Shown here piece by piece: positions 20,370-46,900 of a DNA stretch of 64,000 nucleotides; within the stretch, counting starts at the first letter, position 1, and each line of letters begins with the position of its first letter. The DNA lies in the NCBI GenBank assembly GCA_947568835.1, contig OX387603.1:7042701-7106700 (forward strand), read 5' to 3'. This stretch comes from Protonemura montana. Taxonomy: Eukaryota > Arthropoda > Insecta > Plecoptera > Nemouridae. The notes below the pieces were generated by a model. It was given only the letters and a program-made list of their open reading frames with translations, was not told the DNA's origin and did no database searches. A program made the position numbers and the translations under genes.

Positions 20370-20485
20370 CTGGAAACATGTTGAAATTAAGTTCACCTAC
20401 GTCTAGATTACCTAGCCGGTTACCACTTGAAATTCACGTGTTTGAGATCATAGTGGATATAGTGGAGGTAGATTTTTTTATTTAT

Positions 20486-23036: not shown

Positions 23037-26000
23037 TTAGGCTTCGTTCCTGTGAGGCACCCAATTGTCTCTGTGCAGATTAATGACGTCGTTTAGCATG
23101 CCGCGGACGCGCGAAGACACCGATTCCGGCCCTTGTTTGCTTGAAATCTTGCTCATCTTGTGAAAGTATGACGACAGATCCTAAAAAGGACAAACAGCTT
23201 GGTGGCAGGAAATTTGGTTATTGACATAACTGGACAATCAAAAGGTGCCTAAAATAACACATACATGATTTGTTTTGAATTATAAATCGTAAATGATACC
23301 ACATAGTTAATTATACATTTTAATAATCAATAATAAAACTCTTTGATATGTCACCATTGCATGTCTGGTTCAAATGTTCGGGGAAGATTGTACTTTAAAT
23401 GCTTTTTTGAATCTTAAAAAAGCCAGTGTTGGGTCTAGGGGTCAGCATTTGAATCTGATTTTCTTTTTGGTAATACTAATAATAATAATAATACCTGTTG
23501 TAATAAATGATGAAAAAAAAACCAATTTAAAAAAATATGAATCTGGATTTTTATTTGTAAAACTTTAGATTTCCCTAAGATTGAACCAAAGATTTAACAA
23601 ACGACATGTTCTCACATACATTGCGTTTGCTCTGCTCTCAAGATCTTTGACAATAGTAGTTAGGTATTATTTAGTATTAATTTTTTAGTATTAATGCAAT
23701 CAATACTTATTTTTTTAGCAAAATAAGTTATATGCAAGTTTTAAGCAAGTTATAAGAGAAAGCATATAATTAATAGTTGCCTGGACCAGATAACAGATAG
23801 TGTACAAGTGAAGCTTTCTCACGTTGCTTCTGTTTGATGGTAGCCTCTTTTTACTCTCAAGATCTTTGCCAACAGTGGTGAGAAGTTTGCAAAGGCACTC
23901 TAGGCTCTCTTCGTCCCCGGCAGTGAGCAGCTGACTGATGCATCGATGCATGATTCCTGCAGTCAACATCTTCAGCTTGAACAGCTCTCCAATGAACCTA
24001 AAACACAAAAACCCAACATACAAAAAGTCCTGTAATTACTGGGAATCTGAGATCTTGTAACTCACCTTATGTTTCCTATTGGTTTCATTTGAATTCTTCG
24101 TTCTATGTCTTCTTCTTCAAATAGTAACATTAATTCGTTCTTTTTTTCCTGTAAAGAAGCATCTTACCAATTAGTCAACACAGACTAAAAAAAATAAACA
24201 TTTTATTAGATCGAATCAAAGATATCAGATCAAAAACCATCTTTTCTGGTTGGCTGTTACCAAGCAAATAACTAATTAACGGACTGTCTGGTTGTTAACG
24301 GAACACTGAAAAATCGGCCCTTAGCCCACACCGCTCGCATACTTACAGTATCTGTTTGTAAGTTGAATTCCTTGAGCTTGGCAACTTTATTCAGTCGAGC
24401 CTCTGTGTTCTTTTCAAATTCAGTTTGACACCGGTTGACGATCAATTTGCGGATACTAACAAATTCGGGATCATCGGGTGTCTTGCGCTCGGCTGGGACT
24501 TTTATGTTAGACAGCACTCTGCATATTATTGCATACTTTTCTAGTGGACCAGGATCTTTCACAGCCTTTGGACAATCAGATGTGTTGATTAGAAATGTTA
24601 GAATCATCACAATCATCAGAAAATTAGTGTATTTCATCAAGACTGTATGGTAAAGCTGCTTACATGTTCATAGATTAGATTTATGACACCTGTGAGCTTC
24701 TCACAGTTGTCAATTGGCAGCGCTTTTCCTTGGGATACTAGGTTTTCAAAATTGTGCGGTGTAATCTTGTTAAGCACACTTTGTACAAACATGGAGAGAT
24801 CCTGCAATAGATTAAGGTTCAGAAAGTAAAATAAACTGAGGAAAGGTTACTCAGTCCATAAGCACATTTAAGTTGCTTGCTGCCAAGCATGATCTGCAAA
24901 TGCATTTAATTTATTATGCAGCTGTTACTTTTGATGAAATTAACCCTAAATCCACACTTCCTAATAAATGTATGAACATTTTAAAATTAATGAGGTACAG
25001 AATTCGTTTAGGGATTAATTTTTACAAAAACTTGCTATTATCGTTTTGCTCATATGCTACATATTATTATTATTATTATTACACATGCTCGAAAACTGGG
25101 TTTTTGGGTATAGATAGGCTGGCAATTCCAGTGATTTGTTGACCTAGATAATTTCTTTTTTGCTATTCATGCTAGTAAAAGACTCCTGAAAGCTCATCAG
25201 AAATAATTATAAACCATTACTTGGCTATTCTTTTAAATAAATAACTATTGACACTCGCTATGTATTCAGTATCGGGAAATAGGGCAAGCGTGTCTGACCA
25301 TATTAACGAGAGCGACATATGAAAAAAACTTATCCCTTCAACAAGCGGTAGAGAAAAATATAATATTACACCTCTCTGAGAATTTACTACACGAAAAAAC
25401 TATTAATTAAATGTGAAACCACTAAAGAGTTAATTATGATATGATATGATATGATTAATTAATTCACAAGTAACCCTTAAATCTGCACACATATTAGCCT
25501 ATGACACGCAGTTATATCTGTGACCAACGTGCCATTTAGTTCCTGTTTTGTTAGAGGGGTTCATACGGAACGTGAAATTTGACATTAGAGCAAATCTGTT
25601 TTCATGGCTTTATTCTCACATGTTGCTGAATCACTAATAAAATACTCAATAAATAAGTCTGCAGGAAATTTGTGAGAAACTCGGAAAACAAACTTTGTTG
25701 TCGCCTTTGGCTTCCCGAGATGTAATAGATTTGAGTAATTTGCAATGTTTTTTACATCTGCAATACTAATCTTGAGAGAATAACAAGTTTTCAGACATCT
25801 TACTAATCTAATTCCAAATAAAAACAGTGTTTTTAATGATGTTAAAATGAGTTTAAAACTCCGTCTGTGTTTCAACACAAAAATCTCACCAGTAAATATA
25901 ATTTTGATAGCGATCTTTTGGTATTATTTACCCTAAAGCACGACGATTTCAAAAATATTAAACTTTTCTCGATCAGACAAATAATGTCAATGAAACCAAA

Positions 26001-26567
26001 GTTTTCGTAGTCAACGTACGACTCTAAATTACGTACGGTAGCTACCGGCAGCAATTCAGGGCGAGTCGCTCACACTTGCTGTTGGTAGATCCTCCTAACA
26101 GTAGAGTGGGGAGACCAATGAATCAGCTTAATGAATTTAAATTTAATTTTAGGTAAAAAAAAAGCAAATTTATAGCAAAAAGAAAAGCTTGTGATTTTTT
26201 TCCTTACAAATTAAAAATATTTAAAAAAATTGTGTCCCAACGGGGACCTGAACCCCGATCTCCACCTATCGAGGGTGTTGCCAATTGAGCTACTTGAACA
26301 ACTAGGATTTTAGTGTGTTTCATGAGAATGAAGGATCTCCAAGGAGTAGAACCATAATACTGTGAATACTCAGTCATTCTGATTCCTGCGATCCTATAGC
26401 TTGTCACAACCATTTGATCTCGAGTAAATCCAAATTGAGGTAAAGATGTATAATATCTTAAGATCATAACATCTTTGTACAATATCTTAGCTTTTGATGG
26501 CCGTTAGCAATAGTAATGAGTCTTTGTGTGCATGTAACGATATTGAATTACTCACCTTGTCACTCAT
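23037..26567 (-). CDS. eIF4G-like MIF4G-only protein, paralogue B
   Basis: Six coding exons: 26556-26567 (ATG AGT GAC AAG), 24664-24801, 24347-24565, 24066-24148, 23823-23997 and 23037-23180, 771 nt or 256 residues, all phases consistent. It is a MIF4G domain almost alone: [77 protein letters not shown] and [20 protein letters not shown], then TAA three codons later. The eIF4E-binding motif, MA3 and W2 are absent. The last exon has drifted most (RGMLNDV for RFMLQDV). The first exon is open upstream of the ATG but has no other in-frame ATG; the equivalent exon of C does (34230). It could act as a free eIF4A/eIF3-binding module or a dominant regulator; that is inference. Confidence 0.75.
25290..26176. 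mobile_element. Insertion in the first intron of paralogue B, absent from C
   Basis: Sequence on either side (GTATCGGGAAATAGG before, AAAAAGAAAAGCTTGTG after) is contiguous in C at about 33727-33757 but separated by about 890 bp here. The inserted DNA is AT-rich with TATGA repeats at 25437-25455 and codes for nothing recognised. No clear target duplication or terminal repeats, so the mechanism is unknown. Confidence 0.45.
26233..26302 (-). mobile_element. tRNA-derived SINE head, copy upstream of B
   Basis: On the minus strand an A-box-like TAGCTCAATTGG is followed by a T-arm that folds perfectly (CGGGG, loop TTCAGGT, CCCCG). The acceptor ends do not pair, and an AT-rich tail follows, so this is a tRNA-derived repeat, not a working tRNA gene. 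A second copy lies at 33801-33870 in the duplicated segment. Confidence 0.6.
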
Positions 26568-28046
26568 GTTTTCCTTAGGTGAGCCGTAAGTACCAAACGA
26601 GGAGGTGCCTGAGGTATAGTGAAGCTTTGCCCCCTGTTTTTTCGTTGTTGTTGCGATGTTCTGGTGAGGTTAAATCATTATTAGCAACAAAAAAATATCC
26701 TTCACTCGGACTTGTACACTTATGCAAATAGCTAACACTCTTGTGCGATCACACCCTGCTCTTTGATTCCATAAGCTTTTCACACTCAACATTTTTATCT
26801 ACACACATGCAACAAGAAGCAAAAAATAGACGCATTGCACAAACTCTACACCCACGGCCGCCGATACATCTGTCCATAATGGCACCCATTTATACAATTT
26901 GCATCAAAGAAATCGGAAAATGTTGTCATTATTGCTATTATAGTACTGCCGTGCCATTCTTATGTTAAGAAATATTATTTTTTTAGTAAAAGGTGTAACA
27001 GTTTTTTTTTGGTGGTCCTTATTTTTCCCAGTTTTAGTTAAGAATTATCATTTAAATAATGTCGTTTTCATTGCTAAAGTAGTACACTGTTGGTTCAAAG
27101 AAAACAAGAAGAAAACGTGGGGTCCCCTACCTTTGTGCCAAACCACCAATTTATGTTTTATACTTGCTGGATTGGATTAGAACAAAAGAAAAAGATTAAA
27201 AATCCAGTGTCATGGCTGGGTGTGATCAAAGTAGGTGATTGACAGGGAAGTCAGAGCCATTAAAAGTAAAAGATGGCTCTCAGATATGTGGTGGAAAAGG
27301 AGAAATGATTTTTGGTTGAATAGATGGAATAGATTCTTGACATCATGCCAAAGGCTAGCCAATAATCTTTAGTCATTCTTAGCAATTTCCATTATAGTCG
27401 GCAAAATAGACTGGATTTGGTCAAAGAAATGAGGCAGATTGGACACAAAAATCCACAGTTTAGGATCATCTGGGAAGCAAAGAAATGCTTTACTCATTAG
27501 ACAAAGTCAAAATTTTAAGTGAGTAATTTATTCTTTGTTGGGTTGAGTTCATTAAGAGTCCTTTGTCTTTGTGATCATAACTTAAAGACTTCAATTAATT
27601 TACTAGGAGATTGTCAAGTACCTAGCAGTCATGGGCCATGGAATTCCAAACAATGATCCAAGCTACGTTATCAGTTATTGCAGGACATGGACACATTTCA
27701 TTTAATGCTGTACATTGATCAGAAATCTTGGAAAACCACGTAAACTCTCGATAGAATAAGCTTAGCTTTCGTAACGATTCTCGGGTGATGCCGGTACATA
27801 TTTTCACAATGATGTATAGTTTTATACAAAACAAAACAAGGGAAGACCAAAGCAAAGAATATAATAATAATAAAGATAATAATGATGAAAAGTCATTATG
27901 AACACCGAAAGGAGAAAGAATATAATATTAACAACATAATATATTAATTATACAACGAACAGCTTCCAGAAGATTGCTCCACAGCGTTTACTCGAACTAC
28001 GTATTTAAAATATCTCGGTGCGCGCACTTGACGCGAGTGGACAAGT
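26556..28046. repeat. Spacer 1, between paralogues B and C (duplicate of 34126-40904)
   Basis: Sequence upstream of B (26556-27080) matches that upstream of C (34126-34660). The part from about 27090 to 28046 matches 38045-38260 and 39680-40904 downstream of D. So this is the shorter and less disturbed copy of a duplicated spacer. An AATAAA on the minus strand near 27523 may end the C transcript. A similar hexamer lies near 39868 for D. Confidence 0.7.
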
Positions 28047-31000
28047 TCAGGATTCATCACAGCTGCTCAGTTTCTTGAGCGCGGTATAAAACAAAGTGAC
28101 TGACTTCAAAGCGACCCCCTTGCCCGCCTGCTCAGCAGGATCCGTGCTGGTTTCCCAAGATATGAACGAATCGTTGGAAAATATTCCGTTGTCATTCAGA
28201 AATTGGAAAATGTTGCATAATAACCCTGCAAGCAAAGATATCACACAATAAGAAAATGCACTCCAAAAAAAAACCCACCTACACTTCTTTCAAAGGGTGG
28301 ACCGATGAAAATCTTACCTTGAGGGTGTTCTAGACTATGAATGAGGGCCTGCACTGCATATATGCATTGCAACTCGAGCTCTTCATTGTTATCTACATAT
28401 TTTGCTATCAATCTTTCAAAGCTATGGAAAATCTTTTCATCAAGTTTCCACGTAGCGTTCAATTGCTCTGAAAGAAGAAACCATTGATTAGCATTGGTAT
28501 GTATTGAGAGTCCCCAGATACATTCATATAGCAATACCAAATGGTATTACCACAAAATGCTATTCAGATATTTTGTGACCTCATAAATAATCAGTCCACT
28601 ACTTTCATAAAATCATCACGAAGCATTTTAGCACGACTAAACAACAAAGTGGCAAACAAAATTAATGCTATACAAAAAAAAAACAGTTCATCTTTTTGAA
28701 CTTACTAAGTGATTTTTCACAGATCACGGTCATCAAGGCACGGATAAACTGAGGCTCCTTTACTCTCTCATTAACATTGGCCTGAAACACAAACAAATAA
28801 GAAATTAAGACCATTAGCGTTGGGGATTAGCACCAGCATTTACACCCCAGTTCATCAGATTCCCTTTTCCCCAAAAGGTATGTTTATGTTCACATACTTC
28901 TATCCAATCACAGGCTGGATCAAATGAAGTAGGTAACGGCTCCGTGGTTAGGAAATTAGATAATTTTTTCTTGATTTCATCCATCGTGAGCTGGGAGGCT
29001 GTGGCGGTGGGTGGCGCACCGACCATAGACTCGAGGTTCTAGAAAGAAAACCGATATTTAAATATCCATTCAATAGACTATTTAAAGAGAGTGGGATCCA
29101 ATTAACATTAAGATAGCAGTCAGAGAATCTGTAAAATTCAGAGTAAAACTCAGAAACTCCAGTCCGGCATGACAATACAGAAAATCATCATTTTGACGTG
29201 AATGGGGAGCAGGAACGGTTGCAAATAAAAGTTTGCAAGTGGTTGGTCTTGAACTTATTTTTGGTACTTAAAATAGGAAGAATCACTTACATGAGCTTTT
29301 ATCAAATTATCGACTAGCCCTTCTTCAAGGAAGTCTTGCAATTGGAGGCCAGCCTCAGCCCATTGTGTGCGAATCCAATTGGGACCCTAAAACAAATAAT
29401 AAATTCAAAATAAGTAATCACACTTGAATTAATCTTTTATGCAAGTTCTAAAGTAACTAGTTATTTCCTCAATCATTGTGATAGTATCATCATAGATCAG
29501 TCCACTACTTTCATATAAATAATCATCTTGAAGAAATTCCATCCAATTCACATACATTAAAAGAATGTTCCCACAGCTCACCTTATCTACAATTAACAGC
29601 TTTAACACTTCGGCCACCAGTTCTGACGCCTTCACGGGGGGCCGTACTAGGCCGTGGAACTCGGAGAACGAGACCAGCTCTGAAGACATTATTGGAACTG
29701 AAACACAAGGAAACACATTGTTACTACACAAAGGCAGCCACTACAATTTGATGAACTCTAGCTCAAGTTCAGACACTTACCTATACTTTCGGCTAAGTAG
29801 ACCCAAACTTTCGGGACATCTATCGCAATATCGTCGGCTACCTCTAGGACCTCCTCCATGCCACACATGTACTGCTTTGAAGTGATTACATTCATTTTCA
29901 TAAGCGTGCACATGAGCTGGCTCACGTTTTGCCGACAGCGCGCAGTCTTTTCAAGCACCACATTTATGCTCTCGCGAACAAACTCGTGCATTTGAGAGTC
30001 TATAAACGTTTCCTGGACAGTTTCACAGCAATCCTAAAGAAGAAAAGTCACGTGTCGTTAACAAGAATACACAAGCTGTAAGATTAAAAAAGATGTGTCT
30101 CTACTTGGTGAACAGAATGGTCCTCTTGCCATGACAGGACAATTTCCTCACCGAAATGAGATTGTTGTGAAGTAGTTCATCTACCACCAGCTTGGACTTC
30201 TTCTGCACCTCCTCGCAGCTAAGCTCTTTGGCCAGCTTGGAGGTTGCTGCCCACCTCTCAGGCTGAACCCTGCTCACGCCTTTGTTGCTTGCAGTAAAGG
30301 ACCCAGGCTGGGAGCCCATGCCCGATCGCCAAGAGGAGTTATCACGTGACGACGGCCTGCATAAAAAAAAAATGAGCCGTCTTGAACACATTCAACACGT
30401 CATTTCTACTTAACAACGGACTAGCTGTCGGTCACTTCAGGCCTGTTGAGCTTTGTTTCAACCACAGAGTAATATGTAAGTAGAAGAGTGGTTTTCATCA
30501 TTTAGTGCCGGCTATAGAAGAGGTTTGGGAAGAACCAGTGATGCTACGAACCGGGAGGACTGCTGAGGACCAGTTGACGCAGATGGGGTGAACTTGCCAG
30601 ACGAACCTAGCCTTGGTTGCTGGCTGGAAACAAATGTAGAGAGGAAACAAGTTTAGAACAAACATTAATATCATCTCAAATGGGAAAAGGGTTTCCACTT
30701 TTTTCAGAGGTAATTCTACTGTAACTGGTAAAATGCTGACCTCAACATAGGTGGTGCTGCTCTCTTGTCTTCGCCAGTAGACTCGCTGCCAAGGACTGAA
30801 AACACCTTGTAGCCTTGGCCAGTAGATTTCTTTTCTTTGCTTTTTGATGAGCCTTCTGTACCGCGAGACCATTTTGAAAAGAGATTTTTTTTTCCCGAAG
30901 TTTTCTCCATCTCCACCTGAGAACATTTAGCGAGTGAGAAATAGCACCAATTAAAATAAATGAAAGTTGTAGGATTACTCACTTTGTTTACTTTTATATT

Positions 31001-34000
31001 AGCAGAGTCAACCACCAGGTGGCGGGGCCCCCGAGTACCAACGCTCGTCCAACCTTCGGTTTTTTGGCTGTCCCCTCGTTCTGGGGAAAGAAAAAATGTT
31101 AAAAGAGTTCACACTTAGAAGGCAGCGAGCAGCTGTTGCCACCCACTGATCTTTGATAAATAAAGTACTAGCTGCCACTGACGAAGATGGACAGTCTGTG
31201 GCTGGTTTAACCCCTTGATCGTACCTAGCATGCATCTCACAGGTAATAGTAATTCGTGCAGCTCACAGTTGAGTTTAATCTTCATTCTTTCTTATAAATT
31301 GTACATGGATTAGAAATTGAGTATTAACAAGTTTTTTATTTCTTCTTTAGCCCAGACAAAAATACCAATTCAGAGGATGTTCTAGGGTAATGTATCAACC
31401 AGCTGTAATATATACAGTTAAAAAAAAAAGTTTAAGATGCAAATGGAAGTATCTGATTGGCTGAGATCACATCTCAGAGACCACCAATCATTGTATAACT
31501 AGCCCAAGGAAAATAACCTGTAATTGATCAACCTCAGATGTTAAGCAGGTAGATAACTGAGACAATGGTCTCTTTGTCAGGCTGAACCATGTTTAATCTC
31601 CATTTAACTGCTTTACGGCACACAACCTGAAACGATCGTTGAGCCCGAAGATAACTTTGCTCCGCTCAAAGAACGAAATAAATTTAGCTCAACAACCGAG
31701 ACTCACGGTTCTTATTGCCACCCCTGCGGTCAGTGGCATTTCTGCCACGGTTGTAATTTCTCTGCCCAGGTGTCTGGTTCGACATGTTAAGCGCTATGTG
31801 CATGTCCATTATCTCCTTCTCGGCCTCCTTTTGGATTTGGTCTATGGTCTTGGGGTTGACATCGTCCCTGCGAGGCACCCACTTGCCCTGACGCAACTCA
31901 ATAACGTCTTGAAGCATGAAGCGCACGCGAGAAGACACCGATCCGGTTCCTCGCTTGCTGGAGATCTCAGTCATCTTGAGAAAGTACGCTGACAGGTCCT
32001 GCAGAGCACACAGCAAAGTGTCAGAATCATCATTCGTCAAACTCTACTAATAAGAGCAACCTAGACAAAAGATCTAAAAATAAAAATATATATAAATATA
32101 ATAGAAAAACTTAGTATTAATGCAGTCAACACATTCATTTTTTAGCAAAAGCTAGTCAAAGTGCTGAGAGAAACCATATCATTAATAGTTGCCTGGAACG
32201 GATAACAGATAGTGTACAAGTAACATTTTCTCACATTGCTTGTGTTTGATCGTGGCCCCGTTTTGCTCTCAAGATCTTTGCCAATAGCGGTGAGAAGTTT
32301 GCAGAGGCACTCTAGGCTCTCTTCGTCCCCGGCAGTGAGCAGCTGACCAATGCATCGATGCATGATTCCTGGAGTCAACATCTTCAGCTTGAACAGCTGT
32401 CCAATGAACCTCATATTTTCTATGGATTTCATTTGTATCCTTTGTTCTTCTTCTTCAAATATTAACATTAATTCTTTCTTTTTTTCCTGTAAAATAACCC
32501 AAGAAGTTATAACTAGAAAGACAACAACATTTTCTTAACAGTGAAACCTTGAAATATCTTCAGATTTAAATGTCCAATCATTTGAGCTCAGAAACTCTAG
32601 TCTGGCATGACAAAAAAGATTTCATCATATTATTGAGGAAAATCCACCTCCAAAACGTGTGCATGTCTTAACTTCTGCTTGAATGTGGAATGCACCCAAT
32701 GGGCATTCACCTTAGAAGTAGACCAGCTCCTAACTTTCTGGAATTTTGGAAGTCCCTCTCAAAAGGTTTAACAGTCCAGCAAATGATTAATATCAATATA
32801 CTTACAGGATCTGTTTGCAAGTTGATTTCCTTGAGCTTGGCGTCTTTATTCAGTCGAGCCTCTGCGTTCTTTTCAAATTCAGTTTGACACCGGTTGACGA
32901 TCAATTTGCGGAAATTAACAAATTCGGGGTCTTCGGGTGTCTTGCGCTCGGCTGAGACTTTAATGTCAGACAGCACTTTGCACAGAAGTGCATACTTTTC
33001 TGGTGGACCAGGATCTTTCACAGCCTTTGGACAATCAGATGTGTTGATTAGAAATGTTAGAATCATCACAATCATCAGAAAATTAGTGTATTTCATCAAG
33101 ACTGTATGGTAAAGCTGCTTACATGTTCATAGATTAGATTCATGACAACTGTGAGCTTCTCACAGTTGTCAATTGGCAACGCTTTCACTTGGGATACTGA
33201 GTCATCAAAATTGTGGGGTGTGATCTTGTTAAGCACACTTTGTACAAACATGGAGAGATCCTGCAATGGATTAAGGTCTAGAAAACAAAATAAATTGAGG
33301 AAAGGTTACTCAGTCCAAAATCACATTTAAGTTGCTTGCTGCCAAGCATGATCTGCAAATGCATTTAATTTTCATGACAACTGTACCTTTGATGAAATGA
33401 ACTCTTAATCCATACTTCCTAATAAATGTATGAACATTTTAAAATTAATGAGGTACAGAATCCATCAGTATAGGGATTCATTTTAACAAAAACTTGCTAT
33501 TATCGTTTTGCTCTTGCTAGACATTCTCAAAAACTGGGTTTCTGTGGTTAGATAGGCTGGCAATTCCGGTGATTTGTTGACCTAGATCATTCCTTTTTTA
33601 ACATGCTAGCAAAAGACTCCTGAAAGCTCATCAGAAATAATTATAAACCATTACTTGGCTATTCTTTAAAATAAATAACTATAGCTATGTAGTTATAACT
33701 ATAACTATATAGCTATGTATTCAGTATCGGGAAATAGGACAAGCAAAAAGAAAAGCTTGTGATTTTTTTCCTTACAAATTAAAAATATTTCAAAAAATTG
33801 TGTGCCAACGGGGACCTGAACCCCGATCTGCACGTTTCGAAGGACTTGCCAATTGAGCTACTTGAACAACTTAAGGATTTTAGTGTATTTAATGAGAATG
33901 AAGGATCTCCAAGGAGTAGAAGCAAAATGCTGTGAATACTAAGTCATTCTGATTTCAGTGACCCTATAGCTTGTCACAACCATTCAATCTCGAGTAAATC

Positions 34001-34230
34001 CAAATTGAGGTAAAGATGTATAATATCTTAAGATCATAATATCTGTGTACAATATGTTAGCTTTTGATGGCCGTTAGCAATAGTAATGAGTCTTTGTGTG
34101 CATGTAACGATATTGAATTACTCACCATGTCACTCATGTTTTCCTTAGGTGAGCCGTAAGTACCAAACGAGGAGGTGCCTGAGCTACAGTGAAGCTTTGC
34201 CCCCTGTTGTTTCGTTTGTTGTTGCCACAT
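28047..34230 (-). CDS. Short eIF4G paralogue C: MIF4G-MA3-W2 without the eIF4E-binding region
   Basis: Sixteen exons: 34126-34230, 33123-33260, 32806-33024, 32235-32486, 31707-31998, 30983-31080, 30741-30916, 30552-30623, 30152-30356, 29781-30033, 29582-29697, 29291-29386, 28898-29038, 28706-28781, 28318-28467 and 28047-28225. They sum to 2568 nt (855 residues) with every phase consistent. Start is ATG 34230 ([12 protein letters not shown]), or 34137 (MSDM). Domains: MIF4G about 35-270 ([39 protein letters not shown]), a linker, MA3 about 440-600 ([43 protein letters not shown]) and W2 about 670-855, ending KGVALKSVT. Nothing corresponds to D's exon with YDRDFLM, so it should bind eIF4A and eIF3 but not eIF4E, like DAP5. 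Relative to D it lacks 69 nt in frame in exon 30552-30623. Its 5' exons resemble B, the rest D. Confidence 0.8.
28554..28629 (-). ncRNA. Box C/D snoRNA-like gene, family 4, in C intron
   Basis: Minus strand: terminal stem AAAATGCT / AGCATTTT (8 bp), C box GTGATGA, CTGA (D') at 28591-28594, D box CTGA at 28564-28567. The guide before D' is ATGAAAGTAGTGGA; I recognise no rRNA target. Same intron and position as 41415-41490. Confidence 0.6.
29118..29197 (-). ncRNA. Box C/D snoRNA-like gene, family 1, in C intron
   Basis: C box ATGATGA at 29185-29191, CTGA at 29150-29153, guide TGCCGGACTGGAGT before it. Compared with conserved 28S ACUCUAGUCUGGCA it has one G:U pair and one changed base (CCGG for CCAG), so it may be decaying. 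Further CTGA motifs lie at 29138 and 29119. Confidence 0.45.
29464..29536 (-). ncRNA. Box C/D-like gene, family 4 second member, in C intron
   Basis: Carries the same guide and box (ATGAAAGTAGTGGA then CTGA at 29497-29500) as 28554-28629. Flanks can pair (TTTCTTCA with TGAGGAAA), but the C box is degenerate (AGATGAT) and no good final D box is seen. A relic or a weak gene. Confidence 0.35.
30429..30511 (-). ncRNA. Box C/D snoRNA-like gene, family 2, in C intron
   Basis: Terminal stem CGG-CACT / AGTG-A-CCG, C box ATGATGA at 30495-30501, D box CTGA at 30437-30440. The guide AAGCTCAACAGG before D is complementary over 12 nt to the conserved 28S stretch CCUGUUGAGCUU. Duplicate of 43293-43375. 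Confidence 0.65.
32553..32634 (-). ncRNA. Box C/D snoRNA-like gene, family 1, in C intron
   Basis: C box ATGATGA at 32622-32628, D' CTGA at 32588-32591, a C'-like ATGATTG, D box CTGA at 32560-32563. The guide TGCCAGACTAGAGT before D' is complementary over 14 nt to conserved 28S ACUCUAGUCUGGCA. Duplicate of 45500-45579. Confidence 0.6.
33801..33870 (-). mobile_element. tRNA-derived SINE head, copy upstream of C
   Basis: Duplicate of 26233-26302, with the same A-box-like TAGCTCAATTGG and perfectly paired T-arm (CGGGG/CCCCG). It came with the segmental duplication and is not an independent insertion, since the flanks also match. Confidence 0.6.
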
Positions 34231-35764
34231 TCTGGTGAGTTTAAATCATTTTTAGCAACAAAAACAACAAAAAATCCTTCACTCTGACTAGTACACTTAT
34301 GCAAAAAGTCAACACTCTTGTACGATCACACCCTGCTCTTTGATTCCATAAGCTTTTACACTCAACATTTTTATCTACACATATGCAACAAGAAGCAACA
34401 AACAAGCCTATTGCACAATACTCTACACCCACGGCCGCCAAAACATCTGTCCATAATGGCACCCATTTATATAATTTGCTTCTGAAAATGTGATAATTTT
34501 CGCCATTATAGTATTACCACGTATTACCAGTGCCATTCTTATGTTAAGAACTATTTTTTTTAATAGTAAAAGGTTGGTTGGTATATTTTGGTGGTCCTAA
34601 ATTTCCCCGTTTTCATTAAGAATTTTCGATTTAAAATATATTGTTTTCATTGCTTAAGTACTACCGTTGAGTGAGCAGGTTATAGGTAGAGGCACGACAT
34701 TAATGTTACAGTTTCTGTGTGTAAGATGGCCGCCAAATGACTACTTTACCGACAAAAATGCAGAATACCGTAACACCCTGTTAACAGTGGCGGTTCGTGG
34801 GGCTAAAATGTAAGAAGGCTGGCTGAAATACATATTTCTAACTTGCATGTAAGCATTTCTAGACTCGATAGGTGAAGTCAATGTGGCGTTCTTTCATGGC
34901 CGCAAAGAAGTCGCTGATGCGCTCGTACCACTCTGGCAATAACTCCGTTTCCTTGACGAGTGATTTTTCTATGCTTATTAGCATAGATATTAGCATTAAT
35001 GTTTCAGGTGTAAATTATATGTACTTCACATTCACAACAATTACACTACGCGAAAAATAAACACGTCTTGAGACCTAGCTTCAACCCGGAGGATGCTGGT
35101 TTGGGTCTGCATGCGTGCTAGCACCGTGATAAACATCAAAATTCGCGATGACTGCTCAAAAGGGAGGAAAGCGTTTGCTTTGTTTTCCGGTGAAATAAAA
35201 CCGTTTTAAGTATTGAAATAAGTATAATATAAGAATATAATATAAGTATAATATCATGGAATATTAACTAACAATATCTAAGATGATAATTTTTTGGTAG
35301 AGATTCGTAAGTAGTGGAAATCACTTAACTATTATCAGCCAAAATTATAATTCTGTGGCGCGCTTTGTTTTCCGATTTCCCTCCCTGCATGCCAACGTCG
35401 TGGGCAATCGGGAAAAGTTCGCAATTTTTCGTAGCCTCCTCTCAACGTCATACTACACAGTTCGCTGTCCTTCTCTGGGCAGCAGAGACCGAGAGAAAGA
35501 GCACATGACCCCTTCCCTTCCGCCTACATACTAGAGGCGGCTGGTCGTCGTCTGCCTCCCTGGGGATTTCTTCCGCAAGCGAGCTTGTGATGGTGTGTTG
35601 CGGGTCGTATTACAAACGATCGTAGGGATGAAATAACGCCCCAAATTCGAAAACAGCTCGTTTTTTTTTAGAAACAGCTCGATTCGAAAGTGGTTTAAAA
35701 ACATGATACTAAATTCTCTTCTTACCTCCCTTTTTCAGGGAGACTGTGCCTCCTTTGCCTCATG

Positions 35765-36611
35765 CATGAACCGCCACTGCCTGTTCAGTATTTTACCCTG
35801 TATTTACCTGTATTTAACACCCTGTATTTGAATATAATCGAGTCAAATGCTAAAAGAAAACTGCACTTTGTTATGAGAAATCTTAAAGCCAGCCTAACAG
35901 CAACAAAGGAGCATGCCTACAATTGTCTCATCCGTCCTCTACTCGAGTACTGTAGCGCAGTTTTGAATTCCCATAATGAAAACTATAGGAGTCGTCTTAA
36001 GGCATCCAAAACAAGGCTGCTCGGTATGCCAGAAATGCCCATCGCCGCTGGTGCTAGACAAAGAAGGAACCAACTATCAGTATCAGCTGCATTAAAAAAG
36101 ATTTAAAATGGGATTCACTGCGGCGGCGCAGACAAATGGCTTCCGTCCGCTGTCTTTACAAGACCCTGGCAGGTTTCTCCCGCCTGGAGTGCCATCGCTG
36201 AGATGGTTACCCCAGCAACTTTCCTCGGCAGAGGTGACCACAAGATGAAGCTTTTCCTCCCCTGGTACAGGACTGACACTGGCAGATGCTTTATCTTGGG
36301 CACTACTATCTGGCACTAGAATAGCCTCCCCCCAGGGGATGATGTCTACTTTCCCACCAGGCTTGACAGTACTCAACGGGATGATCAACGAGAGTAATTA
36401 TGACTCAAACTAGTATCATTAACTATTACATACTTAAATCTTTTATTATTCTTATTGTACTATTGTATTATTATATTATTGTATTATTACTTATTTTTCT
36501 CCTATTTAATTGTACAGTGTTGTCTCCTGTGCTGACTAGCGGCCACCGGAAGGTATACTAGTTCCTTAGCTGTTTTCACAAATAAATAAATAAATAAAAT
36601 AAATAAATAAA
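35765..36611 (+). mobile_element. Non-LTR retrotransposon 3' fragment nested in the TIR element
   Basis: The frame at 35765-36106 reads NAKRKLHFVMRNLKAS, EHAYNCLIRPLLEYCSAVLN and RLKASKTRLLG, the region after the reverse transcriptase palm in jockey/CR1-like LINEs. The frame then breaks, but similar-looking sequence continues (WDSLRRRRQMAS in another frame). An (AATA)n tail at 36583-36611 marks the 3' end. Degenerate. Confidence 0.65.
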
Positions 36612-36795
36612 AGTAGAGCCACTGTCATATGAAATTTAATTTCGATATATCTCGTGGGCTAACTCGCTTTTGCGACTTTTCATGCTCTAAGGGATCTCGA
36701 TCAATGTTTACCTCAACGATTGATTTACACCTAACGATATTCAAAAGCAAGTAACGTACGAGAAATATCGAAATTAAATGATAGTGGCTCCACTT
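36611..36795. repeat. Small inverted-repeat element (MITE-like)
   Basis: Arms of about 40 bp at 36611-36655 and 36757-36795 (AAATTTAATTTCGATAT against ATATCGAAATTAAAT) with GAGCCAC/GTGGCTC ends. It lies directly after the LINE tail inside the larger TIR element. Confidence 0.5.
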
Positions 36796-36927
36796 AACGG
36801 GGAGTTCCAATACTCTGCATTATTGTCGGTAAGGTAGTCACTTGACGGCTATCTTTCGCGCAGAAACTGTAACATTAACATCCCGCCTCTACCTATAACT
36901 TGCACACTCAATGGTAGTAGGTACACT

Positions 36928-38044
36928 ACCCCTATTCACTAACTTGGTGCGGGTTTGGTGCGGCTTTGAAACTGCGGCTTTCGGCCGTCGGTTGAACTCG
37001 GCTAAACCCGAAAGCCGCAAAGTTTCGCATTCACTAACTATTCGTATTTCGACCTAGCGGCGGGATCGTGAAACAGCCTGAAATGTCCGAGCACAGTCGA
37101 TAAGTCTGCTAAATAAGCAGAAATTGAAATATTTTCGGATGACAAGTGACAGATGACAAGCTTGTAAGTTTGCTTGTAAGGGCCAATTTCCAGCCAATTT
37201 TAAATGGCAAACAAGATTGATTGATTAAAAAACCCTGTCATTTGGATAATGCTTGAATATAGAATGTATATAAATATATAATAGTCTAATATTAAATTAT
37301 ATATAATATATATATTTATATTACAATTTAATATATATAATAATGCTTGAATCCTTCGCTTGATGCCTTTATGCTTTGTGCATTCATCCCGAGGAATTGC
37401 GCAAGTTGGTTTTGTTGGGTCGTATTTTCCAGCCTAAGATTACCCCTAAACGGAAAATACACAATCCATTTCACACCGCTATTGACAAAAACCTCTCGCT
37501 ATCAAATTCTGATAAACTGATCAAGGATTAAACTTTTGATTAATATTCTTTTTTTCAGAGATCAATTTACTTTGACTTTTGCGCTATCCTGAACTTAGTG
37601 AAAAAGTGCCATTTTAGGAGTTTATTTTGGCAAGTGGAGATAAAAAAAAAGTTTGCGTAAATCCTTTCTCTATAAAATGCTCGATTTTTAGAAATCCAAC
37701 TTCAACGAAAATCCGGAAAAAATTATTATTATGATTATTATTTTGATATTATTATGATTATTATTAATTATTTCCCCTTGACCACAGGAAGTTGTTTTAT
37801 TAAATATATAATGGTTATAACCTTATGCCGAAATATTTCAACGCACGAAATGGGAAAATATCATACAAAATACCTTATCGTTTGCCGTACAGCTTTCACA
37901 CAAGTTTACGTATCTTTTACCTCACTTCACCCAAACCCACGGCTTCTGACAGTGAAAAAGTTAGTGAATGCCAATTGTGTGACATTGCGGCTTTCGCAGC
38001 AAGTGCCGCAGCTTTCGCTTCGAAAAAAGTTAGTGAATAGGGGT
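36928..38044. mobile_element. Second TIR element, inserted 10 bp from the first
   Basis: The ends are inverted repeats, ACCCCTATTCACTAACTT at 36928 and its complement ending at 38044, with subterminal repeats of CATTCACTAACT and GCGGCTTTC. The interior is AT-rich (TA-repeats near 37260-37340, ATT microsatellite at 37725-37765) and codes for nothing recognised. Spacer 1 shows the empty site at about 27086-27091 (TACACTGTTGG). A short CT or ACT/CCT may be the target duplication. Confidence 0.65.
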
Positions 38045-38565
38045 CCTGTTGGTTAAAAGAAAACACGTCCCCCCCCCCCCCCTTGTGACAAACCACAAAT
38101 TTTAATGTTAAATACTTCATAGATTGGATTTGCACAAAAGAAAAAGTATTAAAAACCCAGTGTCATGGCGGTCTTTGGTCATGGCTAGATGTGATCATAG
38201 GAGATGATTGACAGGTGATTAAGAGCCTTAAAATTAAAATATGGCTCTCAGGTGTGGGGGAAAAATGATAATAATTTTTTGGTGGAAGTGATGTTGAGGA
38301 ACATTATAAATCCCTCGAAGATTTCCGGGTTGGAAAATGAAAGGAATAGTGAAGTCACGGAGGAATTGTTAAATCGCCCTCGATGCCTCAGTATTGCCAG
38401 CGACTCACTAAGTGTGGTCCTACAAGGCCATGTGGGAGGGGGGTTAGGATGCAGGGAACAGACTTCAACTAGCCAAATATAGTCATATAAACAAAGCCAA
38501 TTTACTGAAATAATTTCAAAACACATGGTCCCTAGCTAGCTGTCTGGTCAGAGTAAAAATATAAA

Positions 38566-39217
38566 TGTTACTTGATTACGATAGCGTAGACCAAAGACTG
38601 CGTAGACCAAAGGCGTAGACGTAGTGGTGTCGTTCGAGTCTACTCGTAGTTTCGAGGCGGCTCGTAGTTCAATGTACAGTCGAATAAGACGTCGCGAATC
38701 AGGCAACGTCGTGGGATCGAGGCGGTTCGCAACTCAGGCGGCTCGTAGCTTGGGATGCATTCGCGAAGACGTCGTGAATTAAGGCAGCGTCGTTGTTCGA
38801 GATATTTAGCGAATATCGGGCTCGACGGTTTATAACGGTCCTACACTCCGCTCGGTTCCTCTATCTCCAACCGTCCTACTGCAACTTCAGAGAGTAGTGA
38901 TGGTTGCAACTTCGTTGGTCTTCTTCAAGCTCCCTCTCCAGATTCCACATCTCGTGACTCAGTCGACCAATCGTTGGTTGCGAAAAGCTAGATGTTCGTT
39001 CACAGGGATTCCCCATGTCGCTACTATCCAACTTACTAAAATATTTCTCTATTTTACATTTACTGAACATTGAAAATAATTGGGCGAGGCAGTTTGGAAC
39101 GGATAAAAGTGACAGGACCTCACTGCAAACATCAGCACATTCCCCCGAGGGATCGTCATCCAAAATCGCCACTTCGAGATTAAACTAGGGCGCAATTTGC
39201 AAACCGAGGCAAGAACA
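38566..39217 (+). mobile_element. LTR-like sequence followed by a tRNA-primer-like site
   Basis: The block begins TGTTAC, ends ACA, and is followed after one base by TGGCGCCCC at 39219, which looks like a retrotransposon primer binding site. It is far more CpG-rich than its surroundings, with repeated GGCGGCTCGTAG-type words and a TATA-like TTTATAACGG near 38828. No gag or pol follows, so at most a 5' end remains. Absent from spacer 1. Confidence 0.4.
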
Positions 39218-40509
39218 CTGGCGCCCCGTCCGAGACTTATAAGAGAATACTCTATAGATGCACGTGGCTAGAAATCCTGTGGTGCATTAAGTGCACCTCA
39301 CAACAAAGTAATAGAAAGAGACGTTAGTTTTAGAAGATATAAAATAGAAGAAAAATTGAACTGCTCATTTATGAAAATATTCACAAAAAAAAATTCCGGA
39401 GAAGAACTGGAACCATAGAATTAAAAATGGCTAATTTGGAAAGTAAATTTGAATGACATAAACTAACATTACCAATGTTAAGATGCCACTTCGTGTCCTT
39501 TTAAATATTTGTTACTGATCTTGTTATTAAGTGACGATCTAGAAACACAACGCGCCACCTGAAATAAAAACGCACCGTGGCCCCGAAGTAGCTTTTAGTT
39601 CTGGTTCTACCCTGATACCAAACACCTCAACAAAGTATCAACCGGTTTTAGGGGTGCACGAAATTTTCTACCATGTTAAGTAATGATAGTAAGGCTATAA
39701 TCTTCAGTCATTCTGAGTAATTCACAAAATAGTCAGCAAAATACCTTCTGAAAATGCACACTGTATTTGGTGAAGGGAACGAGGAGGATTGGACATAAAA
39801 ATCAACAGTTTAGGTTGATCTGGGAAGCAAAGAAATGCTTTACTCATTAGACAAAGTCAAAATGTTAAGTGAGTCATTTATTCTTTGTTGGGTTGGGTTC
39901 ATTAAGAGTCCTTTGTCTTTGTGATAATAACTTAAAGACCCAATTCCACAAGCTGCAAGAGGTAGCACCTCTGGCCAATTACTGTAAGGATCTGTCATAT
40001 CAGTTTCATTGATTATAACCATCAAATAATAGCAAGTAAAACAATGTCTGTATATGTGTATTAAATATATGGAATAACAATATAAAACCCCAGCAAATAA
40101 AAGTTCTCAAGTCCAAACCTTGCATAGATTTGACTTAAATTAATTTACTAGGAGATTGTCAAGTACCTAGCAGTCATGGGCCATGGAATTCCAAACAATG
40201 ATCCAAGCTACGTTATCAGTTATTGCAGAGACATGGACACATTTCATTTAATGCTGTACATTTATCGGAAATCTTGGAAACCCACGTAAACTCTCGATAG
40301 AATAAGCTTAGCTTTCATATCGATTCTCTGATGTCGTCGGTACATATTTTCACAATGATGTATAGTATTATACAAAACAAAACAAGGGAAGACCAAAACA
40401 AAGAATATAATAATAATAAAGATAATAATGATGAAAAGTCATTATGAACACGGAAAGGAGGAAGAATATAATATTAACAACATAATATATTATTTATACA
40501 ACGAACAGC

Positions 40510-40820
40510 TCTTCCAACTCGACGCCGTATGGTGCAACACGGCCGTTGGAAATGGCAAAAATATCGACGCACTGACTTCACAATGCAGATTATCTTCTTG
40601 ACTCACTTAACTATTTCTTCATTCATTAGCATCCATGTTCCTTGGCAATGCCACCATTTAACTATTCTTTACAATAAAGTCCCAATGTACAAAAACTGTC
40701 CGAGCGAGTCCACAGTGGTCATCCCAGTTTTCACTTTCATTTCACCATTCAACAAAGAAACAATGCTATTTATAGTAAGCAATATAATTACTTAGATTTA
40801 TACACAATTCTGAAATCAAT
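40510..40820. mobile_element. Insertion of about 310 bp 3' of D
   Basis: Spacer 1 reads ACAGCTTCCAGAAGATTG without interruption (near 27961). Here about 310 bp separates the two halves, with CTTCCA at both junctions, which could be a 6-bp target duplication. An open frame of 88 codons on the plus strand spans most of it but resembles nothing known. Confidence 0.4.
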
Positions 40821-40904
40821 CTTCCAGAAGATTGCTCCACAGCGTTTACTCGAACTACGTATTTAAAATGTCTCGGTGCGCGCACTTGACGCGAGTGGAC
40901 AAGT

Positions 40905-43900
40905 TCAGGATTCATCACAGCTGCTCACAGTTTCCTTGAGCGCGGTATAGAACGAAGTGACTGACTTCAAAGCGACCCCCTTGCCCGCCTGCTCAGCAGG
41001 ATCCGTGCTGGTTTCCCAAGATATGAACGAATCGTTGGAAAATATTCCGTTGTCATTCAGAAATTGGAAAATGTTGCATAATAACCCTGCAAGCAAAGAT
41101 ATCACACAATAAGAAAATGCACTCCAAAATAAAACCCATCTACACTTCTTTCAATGGTTGTACTGATGGAAATCTTACCTTGAGGGTGTTCTAGACTATG
41201 AATGAGGGCCTGCACCGCATATATGCATTGCAACTCGAGCTCTTCATTGTTATCTACATATTTTGCTATCAATCTTTCAAAGCTATGGAAAATCTTTTCA
41301 TCAAGTTTCCATGTAGCGTTCAATTGCTCTGAAAGAAGAAACCATTGATTAGCATTGGTATGTATTGAGAGTCCCCAGATACATTCATATAGCAATACCA
41401 AATGGTATTACCACAAAATGCTATTCAGATATTTTGTGACCTCATAAATAATCAGTCCACTACTTTCATAAAATCATCACGAAGCATTTTAGCACGACTA
41501 AACAACAAAGTGGCAAACAAAATTAATGCTATACAAAAAAAAAAAACAGTTCATCTTTTTGAACTTACTAAGTGATTTTTCACAGATCACGGTCATCAAG
41601 GCACGGATAAACTGAGGCTCCTTTACTCTCTCATTAACATTGGCCTGAAACACAAACAAATAAGAAATTAAGACCATTAGCGTTGGGGATTAGCACCAGC
41701 ATTTACACCCCAGTTCATCAGATTCCCTTTTCCCCAAAAGGTATGTTTATGTTCACATACTTCTATCCAATCACAGGCTGGATCAAATGAAGTAGGTAAC
41801 GGCTCCGTGGTTAGGAAATTAGATAATTTTTTCTTGATTTCATCCATCGTGAGCTGGGAGGCTGTGGCGGTGGGTGGCGCACCGACCATAGACTCGAGGT
41901 TCTGAAAAGACAACTGATATTTAAATATCCATTCAATAGACTATTTAAAAAGAGTGGGATCCAATAAACATTAAGATAGCAGTCAGTTAATCTGTAAAAT
42001 TCAGAGTAAAACTCAGAAACTCCAGTCTGGCATGACAATACAGAAAATCATCATTTTGACGTGAATGGGGAGCAGAAACGCTTGCAAATAAAAGTTTGCA
42101 AGTGGTTGGTCTTGAACTTATTTTTGGTACTTAAAATAGGAAGAATCACTTACATGAGCTTTTATCAAATTATCGACTAGCCCTTCTTCAAGGAAGTCTT
42201 GCAATTGGAGGCCAGCCTCAGCCCATTGTGTGCGAATCCAATTGGGACCCTAAAACAAATAATAAATTCAAAATAAGTAATCACACTTGAATTAATCTTT
42301 TATGCAAGTTCTAAAGTAACTAGTTATTTCCTCAATCATTGTGATAGTATCATCATAGATCAGTCCACTACTTTCATATAAATAATCATCTTGAAGAAAT
42401 TCCATCCAATTCACATACATTAAAAGAATGTACCCACAGCTCACCTTATCTACAATTAACAGCTTTAACACTTCGGCCACCAGTTCTGACGCCTTCACGG
42501 GGGGCCGTACTAGGCCGTGGAACTCGGAGAACGAGACCAGCTCTGAAGACATTATTGGAACTGAAACACAAGGAAACACATTGTTACTACACAAAGGCAG
42601 CCACTACAATTTGATGAACTCTAGCTCAAGTTCAGACACTTACCTATACTTTCGGCTAAGTAGACCCAAACTTTCGGGACATCTATCGCAATATCATCGG
42701 CTACCTCTAGGACCTCCTCCATGCCACACATGTACTGCTTTGAAGTGATTACATTCATTTTCATAAGCGTGCACATGAGCTGGCTCACGTTTTGCCGACA
42801 GCGCGCAGTCTTTTCAAGCACAACATTTATGCTCTCGCGAACAAACTCGTGCATTTGAGAGTCTATAAACGTTTCCTGGACAGTTTCACAGCAATCCTAA
42901 AAAAGAAAAGTCACGTGTCATTAACAAGAATACACAAGCAGTAAGGTTAAAAAAGATGTGTCTCTACTTGGTGAACAGAACGGTTCTCTTGCAATGACAG
43001 GACAATTTCCTCACCGAAATGAGATTGTTGTGAAGTAGTTCATCTACCACCAGCTTAGACTTCTTCTGCACCTCCTCGAAGCTAAGCTCTTTGGCCAGCT
43101 TGGAGGTTGCTGCCAACCTTTCGGGCTGAACCCTGCTCACGTCCTCGTTGCTCGCAGTAACGGAGCCAGGCTGGGAGCCCATGCCCGATCGCCGAGAGGA
43201 GTTATCACGTGACGACGGCCTGCATAAAATAAAAAATGAGCCGTCTTGAACACATTCAACATGTCATTTCTACTCAACAACGGAATAGCTGTCGGTCACT
43301 TCAGGCCTGTTGAGCTTTGTTTCCACCACGGAGTAATATGGAAGTAGAAGAGTGGTTTTCATCATTTAGTGCCGGCTATAGAAGAGATTTGGGAAGAACC
43401 AGTGATGCTACGTACCGGGAAGACTGCCGAGGACCAGTGCTTCTCGAAGACCTTACGTCGGGGGTGCTAGGTTGCTTGAACGAGGCCAGCATACGTTCTT
43501 TCTCTATTGACGCAGATGGTGTGAACTTGCCAGACGAACCTAGCCTTGGTTGCTGGCTGGAAACAAATGTAGAGAGGAAACAAGTTTAGAACAAACATTA
43601 ATATCATCTCAAATGGGAAAAGGGTTTCCACTTTTTTCAGAGGTAGTTCTACTGTAACTGGTAAAATGCTGACCTCAACATAGGTGGTGCTGCTCTCTTG
43701 TCGTCGCCAGTAGACTCGCTGCCAAGGACTGAAAACACGTTATAGCCTTGGCCAGTAGATTTCTTTTCTTCGCTTTTTGATGAGCCTCCTGCACCGCGAG
43801 ACCATTTTGAAAAGAGATTTGTGTTTCCCAAAGTTATCTCCATCTCCACCTGAAAGCATTGAGGTACCCATTAGTGAGTGAGAAATAGCTCCAATTAAAA

Positions 43901-46900
43901 TAAATGAAAGTTGTAGGATTACTCACTTTGTTGACTTTCATCTTTGCAGAGTCAACCACCAGGTGGCGGGGCCCCCGAGTACCAACGCTCGTCCAACCGT
44001 CGGTTTGTTGGTTGTCCCCTCGTTCTGGAGAAAAAAAAAAGTCAAATGGGTTTACACTTAATAGGCAGTGAGCAGCTGTTGCCACCCACTGATCTTAGAT
44101 AAATAAAGTACTAGCTTCCACTGACAGAGATGGACAGTCTGTGGCTGGTTTAACCCCTTGATCGTACCTAGCATGCACCTCATAGGTAACAGGACTTCGT
44201 ACAGCTTACAGTTGAGTTTAATCTTCATTCATTCTTATAAATTGTACATGGATTAGAAATTGAGTATTAACAAGTTTTTTATTTCTTCTTTAGCCCAGGC
44301 AAAAATACCAATTCAGAGGATGTTCTAGGGTAATGTATCAACCAGTAATACTATATAGAGTTAAAAAAAAAAGTTTAAGATGAAAATGGAAGTATCTGAT
44401 TGGCTGAGATCACATCTCAGAGACCACCAATCATTGTAAAACTAACCCAAGGAAAATAACCTGTAATTGATCAACCTCAGATGTTAAGCAGGTAGATAAC
44501 TGAGACAATGTTCTCTCTGACAGGCTGAACCATTTTTAATCTCCATTTAACTGCTTTACGGCACACAACCTGAAACGATCCTCGAGCCCGAAGATAACTT
44601 TGCTCCGCTCAAAGAACGAAATAAATTTAGCTCAGCAACAAAGAACATAGACTCACGGTTCTTATTGCCACCCCTGCGGTCGTTGACATTTCCGCCACGG
44701 TCGTCGTTTCTCCGCCCAGGTGTCTGGTTCGACGAGTTAAGTGCTATGTGCATGTCCATAGTCTCCTTCTCGGCCTCCTTTTGGATTTGGTCCATGGTTT
44801 TGGGGTTGGCATCGTCCCTGCGAGGCACCCACTTGCCCTGACGCAGCTCAATAACATCTTGAAGCATGAAGCGCACGCGAGAAGACACCGATCCGGTTCC
44901 TCGCTTGCTCGAGATCTCACGCATCTTGAGAAAGTATGCTGACAGGTCCTGCAAAGCACACAGCAAAGTGTCAAACACATCATTCGTCAAACTCCACATA
45001 ACAAGAGCAACCTAGACAAAAAGATCTAAAAATAAATATAAATATAACAGAAAGATTTAGTATTAATGCAATCAACACATTCATTTTTTAGCAAAAGCAA
45101 GTTAAAGTGATGAGAGAAATCATATCATTAATAGTTGCCTGGAACAGATAACAGATAGTATACAAGTAACATTTTCTCACATTGCTTGTGTTAGATGGTG
45201 GCCCCGTTTTGCTCTCAAGATCTTTGCCAATAGTGGTGAGAAGTTTGCAGAGGCACTCTAGGCTCTCTTCGTCCCCAGCAGTGAGCAGCTGACCGATGCA
45301 TCGATGCATGATTCCTGCGGTCAACATCTTCAGCTTGAACAGCTCTCCAATGAACCTTATATTTCCTACGGATTTCATTCGTATCCTTCGTTCTTCTTCT
45401 TCAAATAGTAACATTAATTCCTTCTTCTTTTCCTGTAAAAAAACCCAAGAAGTTATAACTAGAGGAACAATAACTTTTTCTTAACAGTGAAACCTTGAAA
45501 TATCTTCAGATTTAAATGTACAATCATTTGAGCTCAGAAACTCTAGTCTGGCATGACAAAAAATATTTCATCATATTATTGAGGAAAATCCACCTCCAAA
45601 ACGTGAGCATGTCATAGCTTCTGCTTGAATGTGGAATGCACCCAATTGGCATTCACCTTAGAAGTAGACCAGCTCCTAACTTTCTGGAATTTTGGAAGTC
45701 CCTCTCAAAAGGTTTAACAGTCCAGCAAATGATTAATATCAATATACTTACAGGATCTGTTTGCAAGTTGACTTCCTTGAGCTTGGCGTCTTTATTCAGT
45801 TCAGCCTCTGTGTTCTTTTCAAATTCAGTTTGACACCGGTTGACGATCAATTTGCGGAAATTAACAAATTCGGGATCTTCGGGTGTCTTGCGCTCGGCTG
45901 GGACTTTCATGTCGGACAGCACTTTGCACATAAGTGCATACGCCACTGAGAAACCAGGCTCATCTACAGCCTGTGAACACACAAAAACATTGACATGTTT
46001 TCACTTCTTTTAGTACAACAACGCATTCAAGCGCCGAGTAGCTCACACTTTCTAATGTTGCACATGGCCGATTCTAACAAAGAAAACATTTTGTACGCAA
46101 AACTTAAAGCCACAGCGCCAATAGTTGGTCAAACTGTGGTAGTTATATCTTGCTCGTAATCTGGCAGCTGGTTGTTTTGCTCCAAGCTTTTGTCAACCCA
46201 GGAGCATTCAACCGTGCCGATGCTTTAAAATTTAATTTACCGAGTACTGTTGAAAAAGATCTCACACCCAACTGGCTATTTTTACTGACAATTGGGAAGG
46301 ATAATGTATGCAAAACTTAAAGCCACAGCGCCAATACTTGGCCAAACTGTGGTAGTTATATCTTGCTATTTATCTGGCAGCTGATTGTGAAGCTCCAAAG
46401 CTTTAGTCAACCTAGGAGCAGTCAATCGTGCATTTGAGTTTGCTGTTTCGACCACAAGATCTTGGAACACTTCACAGGAGTGAAGTTGTTAGCAACCTTT
46501 AAAGCCACAAATGCAGTTAGTTGGCAAAATTGTGGTAGTTATAGATTGCAATCAATCTGGCATCGATTTGGTTAGTCTCGCAGTCAGGAAATGTCAGCGA
46601 GCATTTAATCGTGCTCAAATCTAACTAGCACCACAAAATTGGTCATGCTTGTTTAAACTGCTCACCTTTTCGAAGACTAGATTTATGACACCTGTGAGCT
46701 TATCACAGCTGTCAATAGGCAGAGCTTTCACTTGCGACACTAAGGTGTCAAACTTCTGAGGTGTCAGCTTGTTGAGCACACCTCGAACTGACTTGTAGAG
46801 ATCCTATAAGAAAGTAACAAATTAGCGTCTGATCGTTACTTAATATTAATTGTGTAATATTATTAGATGTAAGTTAAGAAAATCACCATAGTGATGGAAG

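Follow-up and report, generated by a model that had tools for sequence, protein, structure and literature searches.

Gene fusion by unequal crossing over between neighbouring genes is an established process, as two reports illustrate. For the chimeric HERC5/6 genes of rodents and bats, the authors invoke unequal crossing over (PMC7775381), and the chimeric CYP11B1/CYP11B2 gene of human aldosteronism is described as a product of unequal crossing over of two similar genes (PMC8750845). Here we analyse a 64 kb window (the whole stretch of DNA under study) on contig C2 of the 258 Mb, 34-contig genome of the stonefly Protonemura montana, in which an eIF4G gene, D, is followed downstream on the minus strand by an array of three shorter relatives, C, B and A. 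Paralogue C is very probably a chimeric eIF4G gene that arose by one unequal crossover, that is, by non-allelic homologous recombination, between B and D, as the first-pass annotation of the window had proposed. This reading is supported chiefly by ordered spacer pieces, and also by a sharp switch of parentage within one exon and by similar synonymous divergence (dS) on both sides of the join; the reading frame of C is intact.

Among the globins, fusion products of the anti-Lepore type are additional genes with a parent on either side, and C, with B and D on its two sides, is alike in this respect. The Lepore and anti-Lepore globins and the CYP11B1/CYP11B2 chimera are human disease alleles, whereas C has had time to gather about 0.1 synonymous changes per site. 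According to the two reports, C would share with CYP11B1/CYP11B2 the fusion of two similar genes via unequal crossing over (PMC8750845), and with HERC5/6 the joining of two neighbouring paralogues within the parental locus, the retention of introns and a suspected later conversion that holds one part parent-like (PMC7775381). The HERC5/6 genes, however, are mammalian and of the ubiquitin-ligase type, whereas the genes described here encode translation factors, the join lies inside an exon and both spacers are readable. No eIF4G fusion by crossover appeared among the literature matches listed, as far as their titles and the openings of their abstracts indicate.

DAP5, also called eIF4G2, p97 or NAT1, has a layout of MIF4G, MA3 and W2 domains. 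It is summarised as an eIF4G family protein without an eIF4E-binding site (PMC9977666), and it differs from C in being a separate gene in the same genome, whereas C descends from a neighbouring eIF4G. Drosophila has a testis-specific eIF4G2, which resembles C as an extra eIF4G-type factor in an insect and has its own expression (PMC4388691); the summary of that work mentions no fusion. The value of the present case lies in its completeness and in the shortened eIF4G that C would make. Parents, product and both spacers survive, so that the event can be resolved to a few bases, and C, if expressed, would offer a natural test of an eIF4G without the cap-binding half beside an intact gene.

The parentage of C switches once, inside exon b

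Exon limits and gene models were set by hand from splice signals, and the limits that the first-pass annotation had given for exon b of B, C and D (24347-24565, 32806-33024 and 45752-45970) agree with them. Self-comparison of the window by blastn matched C to D over 27963-30574 with 40821-43438 (97.7% identity) and over 30574-32995 with 43507-45941 (93.3%), and matched B to C over 24339-25248 with 32798-33682 (89.6%) and over 26174-27085 with 33742-34664 (88.8%). In a three-way alignment of B, C and D, C is B-like in the upstream flank, in exon a, in the intron between exons a and b (intron a-b) and in the first codons of exon b ([12 protein letters not shown]), and turns D-like from LLCKVLSD onwards, continuing with the intron b-c of D. 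The annotation had assigned these 5' parts to B, an assignment borne out by an identity of about 89% over 32798-34664, and had described the corresponding introns of D as different. This too was confirmed: blastn found no match between B and D in intron a-b or in intron b-c, while B and C are identical at 98 of 98 positions in the former and C differs from D by 3.8% in the latter.

A scan of 111 informative exon sites places the best single switch at 32996/32988: the sites ahead of it comprise 35 B-like and 4 D-like ones, those past it 11 B-like and 61 D-like ones. This contrast was equalled in 0 of 10,000 site shuffles in a test that treats sites as independent. A model with this switch gains 31.6 log-likelihood units over a model with none, and only 32997/32996 also lies within 2 units. 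The change of nearest relative is therefore abrupt and lies within the exon, as predicted, but it is not in the middle, being 29-37 bases into an exon of 219 bases. Some of the D-like sites past the join may be later changes in B, and we therefore also give a cautious interval that extends from 32996 to the 3' limit of exon b, beyond which the intron of B has no match. The parentage of C changes once, sharply, at homologous positions, and in these alignments the gene region has no private sequence apart from minor indels and some 30 bases around 33.7 kb.

Ordered spacer pieces outline the duplicated unit

C is placed between both parents, on the same strand, and the spacers on its two sides are homologous, as the annotation had stated: five pieces from the B upstream region and the B-C spacer recur, with their order kept, in the C upstream region and the C-D spacer (Table 1). 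This shared order defines a duplicated unit that reaches from within exon b of B to the corresponding position in exon b of D, as one crossover of misaligned B and D would leave it.

Parts of each of three one-sided stretches (34800-36780, 38200-39650 and 25300-26160) match many other places in the genome, which indicates dispersed repeats within them. For further stretches without a counterpart, among them 36.9-38.0, 39.9-40.1, 40.5-40.8 and 43.4-43.5 kb, the comparison extended over the window alone. Part of the dispersed repeats of the C-D spacer is flanked by a 126-base inverted repeat (34659-34784 and 36794-36919, 83% identity).

C keeps an open MIF4G-MA3-W2 frame

Spliced at GT-AG, C has 824 codons with no stop and no frameshift, and Pfam recognised MIF4G (1.9e-36), MA3 (8.8e-18) and W2 (1.5e-8) in its product, each above the Pfam cut-off. 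The eIF4E-binding domain was found in a frame of D (Table 1), and the products of B and C gave no Pfam match to it at E 0.1; B itself ends with a stop codon just past the MIF4G domain, at the end of exon d. The layout of C, MIF4G-MA3-W2 without an eIF4E-binding part, is DAP5-like. Membership of C in the DAP5 family is excluded, as its MIF4G domain is nearer to eIF4G structure chains (1hu3, 1.4e-58; 8huj, 1.3e-50) than to those of eIF4G2, which were also matched (4iul, 6.7e-25), and the genome carries its own DAP5 gene on contig C4 (best match eIF4G2, 4.8e-77), with a W2 match about 2 kb from it on the same strand. The retained introns rule out a retrocopy, and B cannot be derived from C, since it has its own exon d and intron b-c, plus an intron c1-c2 that is absent from C and D.

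It is possible, if unlikely, that C arose by the crossover and is now a decaying by-product, an unprocessed pseudogene, instead of a working gene. The ratio of nonsynonymous to synonymous divergence (dN/dS) between C and D, calculated like dS with our own script by the Nei-Gojobori method, is 0.55 in the 3' part of exon b, b(3'), through exon c, 0.22 in exon d, 0.72 in the linker and 0.22 in the MA3-W2 part. Decay would fit the linker value, the absence from C of 69 bases (23 codons) of linker exon g of D, and the direction of the amino acid changes. Of the sites at which C and D differ, human eIF4G1 agrees with one of the two at 9 in MIF4G and 2 in MA3-W2, and at 8 and 2 of these, respectively, it is C that has changed (human eIF4G1 agrees with neither C nor D at 11 further MIF4G and 6 further MA3-W2 sites). 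Judged against B, 11 changes fall to C and 4 to D, making C the faster copy. Decay is, however, hard to square with the open frame over all 824 codons, with a linker loss that is in frame, and with shared introns that start with GT and end with AG in both C and D in 13 of 13 cases; the low MA3-W2 ratio also speaks against it, although D-derived conversion could have preserved this part as well.

The opposite outcome is possible too, though doubtful: one crossover could have created a second, independent DAP5-type initiation factor, in which the MIF4G-MA3-W2 half of an eIF4G acquired the promoter and start of the B type and was kept working, its MA3-W2 part held to D by conversion and its MIF4G half changing fast toward a new cap-independent or tissue-specific role.

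Uneven divergence points to gene conversion

Before the join, in the 5' part, dS between B and C is 0.126; past it, dS between C and D is 0.092 in exons b(3')-c, 0.129 in exon d and 0.103 in the linker, and these three C-D values fit one event. In the MA3-W2 part dS is 0.043, and the 97.7% part of the C-D match contains identical runs of 367 and 350 bases, the longest of which was reached in 22 of 5000 shuffles; together, the low dS and the long runs suggest later conversion between C and D. The longest identical C-D run in 30574-32995 is 125 bases (100 of 5000 shuffles). Beside the join, at intron a-b, 138 consecutive columns are identical between B and C, a length reached in 0 of 5000 shuffles of 24339-25248. 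Per 150 bases, C and D differ by 0-7% in the MA3-W2 part and by 1-10% from there to the join, so the description of the 3' part of C as matching D almost base for base is apt for the former and not for the latter.

Several observations weigh against a single crossover as a full account of C. Introns b to f (four introns) differ between C and D at 75 of 1241 positions (6.0%), versus 90 of 957 (9.4%) for B and C in introns 1-a and a-b (P 0.004), and the nine C-D introns further downstream, which lie outside this intron test, differ by 0-7.6%, lower still on average. The B-C difference rises to 14.7% and 33.3% in the two farthest upstream windows, from 26774, and identical B-C runs in 26174-26900 show no significant excess (572 of 5000 shuffles). 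The dN/dS values of exons b(3')-c and the linker, moreover, imply weak constraint on part of the D-type half. Conversion or alignment may be the cause of the uneven noncoding divergence, which leaves a single date for both halves without proof. An older exchange from D to B, with later conversion between B and C and between C and D, would explain the uneven identity, and one crossover would then not be the whole history.

Conversion could also be given a larger role, in that the whole of B (or an older C) was duplicated and a long D conversion tract then overwrote its 3' half. Conversion is likely in this array, as the identical B/C and C/D tracts and the low B-D divergence in b(3') and c2 indicate, but we consider this origin improbable: the D-type stretch passes the 3' flank into a spacer whose pieces are ordered as in the C-D spacer, up to the B upstream flank, so that a tract of more than 5 kb would have to end without a trace. 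Placement of two haplotypes of a B-D locus in series by the assembly is very improbable, for although identities of 89-98% are within reach of haplotypes in very polymorphic animals, the join would have had to hit matching codons of two different paralogues by coincidence, where their shared stretch is only about 200 bases long at 91%, the DNA at 28.0-30.6 kb has two places in the 258 Mb assembly, C and D, and no further copy, and the two spacers carry different repeat insertions.

An exon island shared by B and D as the probable pairing site

For the single crossover between B and D, a likely pairing site is apparent. B and D are 91.4% identical over 198 bases of exon b, between introns without a match, and their introns c-d align over no more than 140 bases, with 79% identity. 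Of 79 synonymous sites in b(3') and c2, 10 differ between B and D, against 29.8 of 72.9 (rounded, 30 of 73) in the remaining group of exons a, b(5') and d (Fisher P 9e-5); when c1 is counted with b(3') and c2, 15 of 93 sites differ (P 4e-4). The crossover sits at the 5' edge of this island of exon homology. Within the island, dS is 0.16 between B and C and 0.18 between B and D; B is thus about equally distant from both, which places the island before the fusion. An older D-to-B exchange probably made the island, and we read it as confined to exons because the introns no longer pair.

These data suggest an order in which conversion keeps exons alike while introns drift, an exon becomes the pairing site, and crossover yields a gene with a novel start that encodes a shorter protein. 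Exons b(3') and c2 would first have been kept alike by D-to-B conversion; D of one chromosome would then have mispaired with B of the sister or homologue at exon b, and the exchange would have left, between B and D, a gene made of the 3' half of D and the 5' half of B. Subsequent conversion between C and D would have homogenised the MA3-W2 part, and a short stretch at intron a-b would have been evened out by conversion between B and C. C would be expressed from the B-type upstream region, giving an eIF4G without the eIF4E-binding part. The domains of eIF4G have eIF4A and eIF3 as binding partners, and the shortened C protein, if it works at all, might by analogy act like DAP5, or it might compete with D for these two factors.

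Coordinates and other features of the window

Table 1. Features of the eIF4G array in the 64 kb window (positions count from the first base of the window)
Feature	Position	Strand	Description and basis
Paralogue A	19043..20370 (approximate limits)	-	More distant MIF4G-only copy with acidic tail; MIF4G match
Paralogue B	23037..26567	-	256-codon MIF4G-only gene, exons 1, a, b, c1, c2, d; hand model, stop at end of exon d, Pfam
Paralogue C	28047..34137	-	Probable fusion gene, 16 coding exons, 824-codon MIF4G-MA3-W2 frame intact; hand model, Pfam
Paralogue D, MIF4G-MA3-W2 part	40905..46803	-	15 exons, a-o, of the eIF4G gene; hand-set exon models
D frame with eIF4E-binding region ([12 protein letters not shown])	47574..47870	-	Pfam PF21140, E 2.6e-7, 31 bits vs cut-off 27
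C first coding exon (MSDM), B-type, predicted start codon	34126..34137	-	ATG then GTGAGT donor, phase 0 to exon a; predicted
B first coding exon (MSDK)	26556-26567		Same ATG/GTGAGT layout as first exon of C
C exon a, B-type	33123..33260	-	23 B-like vs 3 D-like sites
C exon b, with switch from B-type to D-type	32806..33024	-	Three-way alignment, site statistics
Best interval for the probable crossover	32988..32996	-	Site scan and profile likelihood; cautious interval 32797-32996
D-type part of C, exons b(3') to o and 3' end	27963..32988	-	Window self-comparison, divergence
B upstream part (intron 1, exon 1) and spacer 1	25289..27963	.	Piecewise homologous to 33744-40821; dispersed repeat in 25300-26160
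C upstream part and spacer 2	33744..40821	.	Pieces in same order as in 25289-27963, plus dispersed-repeat insertions
Spacer piece 1	25200-25289 with 33634-33744		Within intron 1 of B and C
Spacer piece 2	26174-27085 with 33742-34664		Spans exon 1 of B and C
Spacer piece 3	27124-27216 with 38074-38169		
Spacer piece 4	27410-27596 with 39760-39945		
Spacer piece 5	27587-27964 with 40132-40510		

The 5' part of D extends rightward beyond the MIF4G exons, and frames at 60.7-63.2 kb may form part of its N-terminal region; two of these frames had no family match in the Pfam scan. A 440-base unit, repeated 4.2 times in tandem at 48450-50310, lies 5' of the eIF4E-binding and MIF4G exons of D, probably within a D intron.

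A phase-2 intron immediately before the motif R/K-F-[IV]-G-E-L is common to A (about 19530-19725) and B (23998-24065) and is missing from D and C; it was either lost in D or gained in a common ancestor of A and B. The acidic tail that closes A reads DDEDDSDDDDE; neither B nor C was seen to end in such a tail.

Intron 1 of both B (about 26225-26305) and C (about 33790-33870) contains, at the same place, a tRNA-like stretch with words that we take to be A-box- and B-box-like; ARAGORN called no tRNA. Elsewhere in the assembly, the mitochondrial COX1, ND2 and COX2 sequences have an arthropod and probably hexapod character, and the mitochondrial COX1 match on a small contig (L016, C34:3504-4841) has an equal-scoring copy (L015, C4:5760925-5762262), which is either a recent nuclear copy or a misplaced piece.

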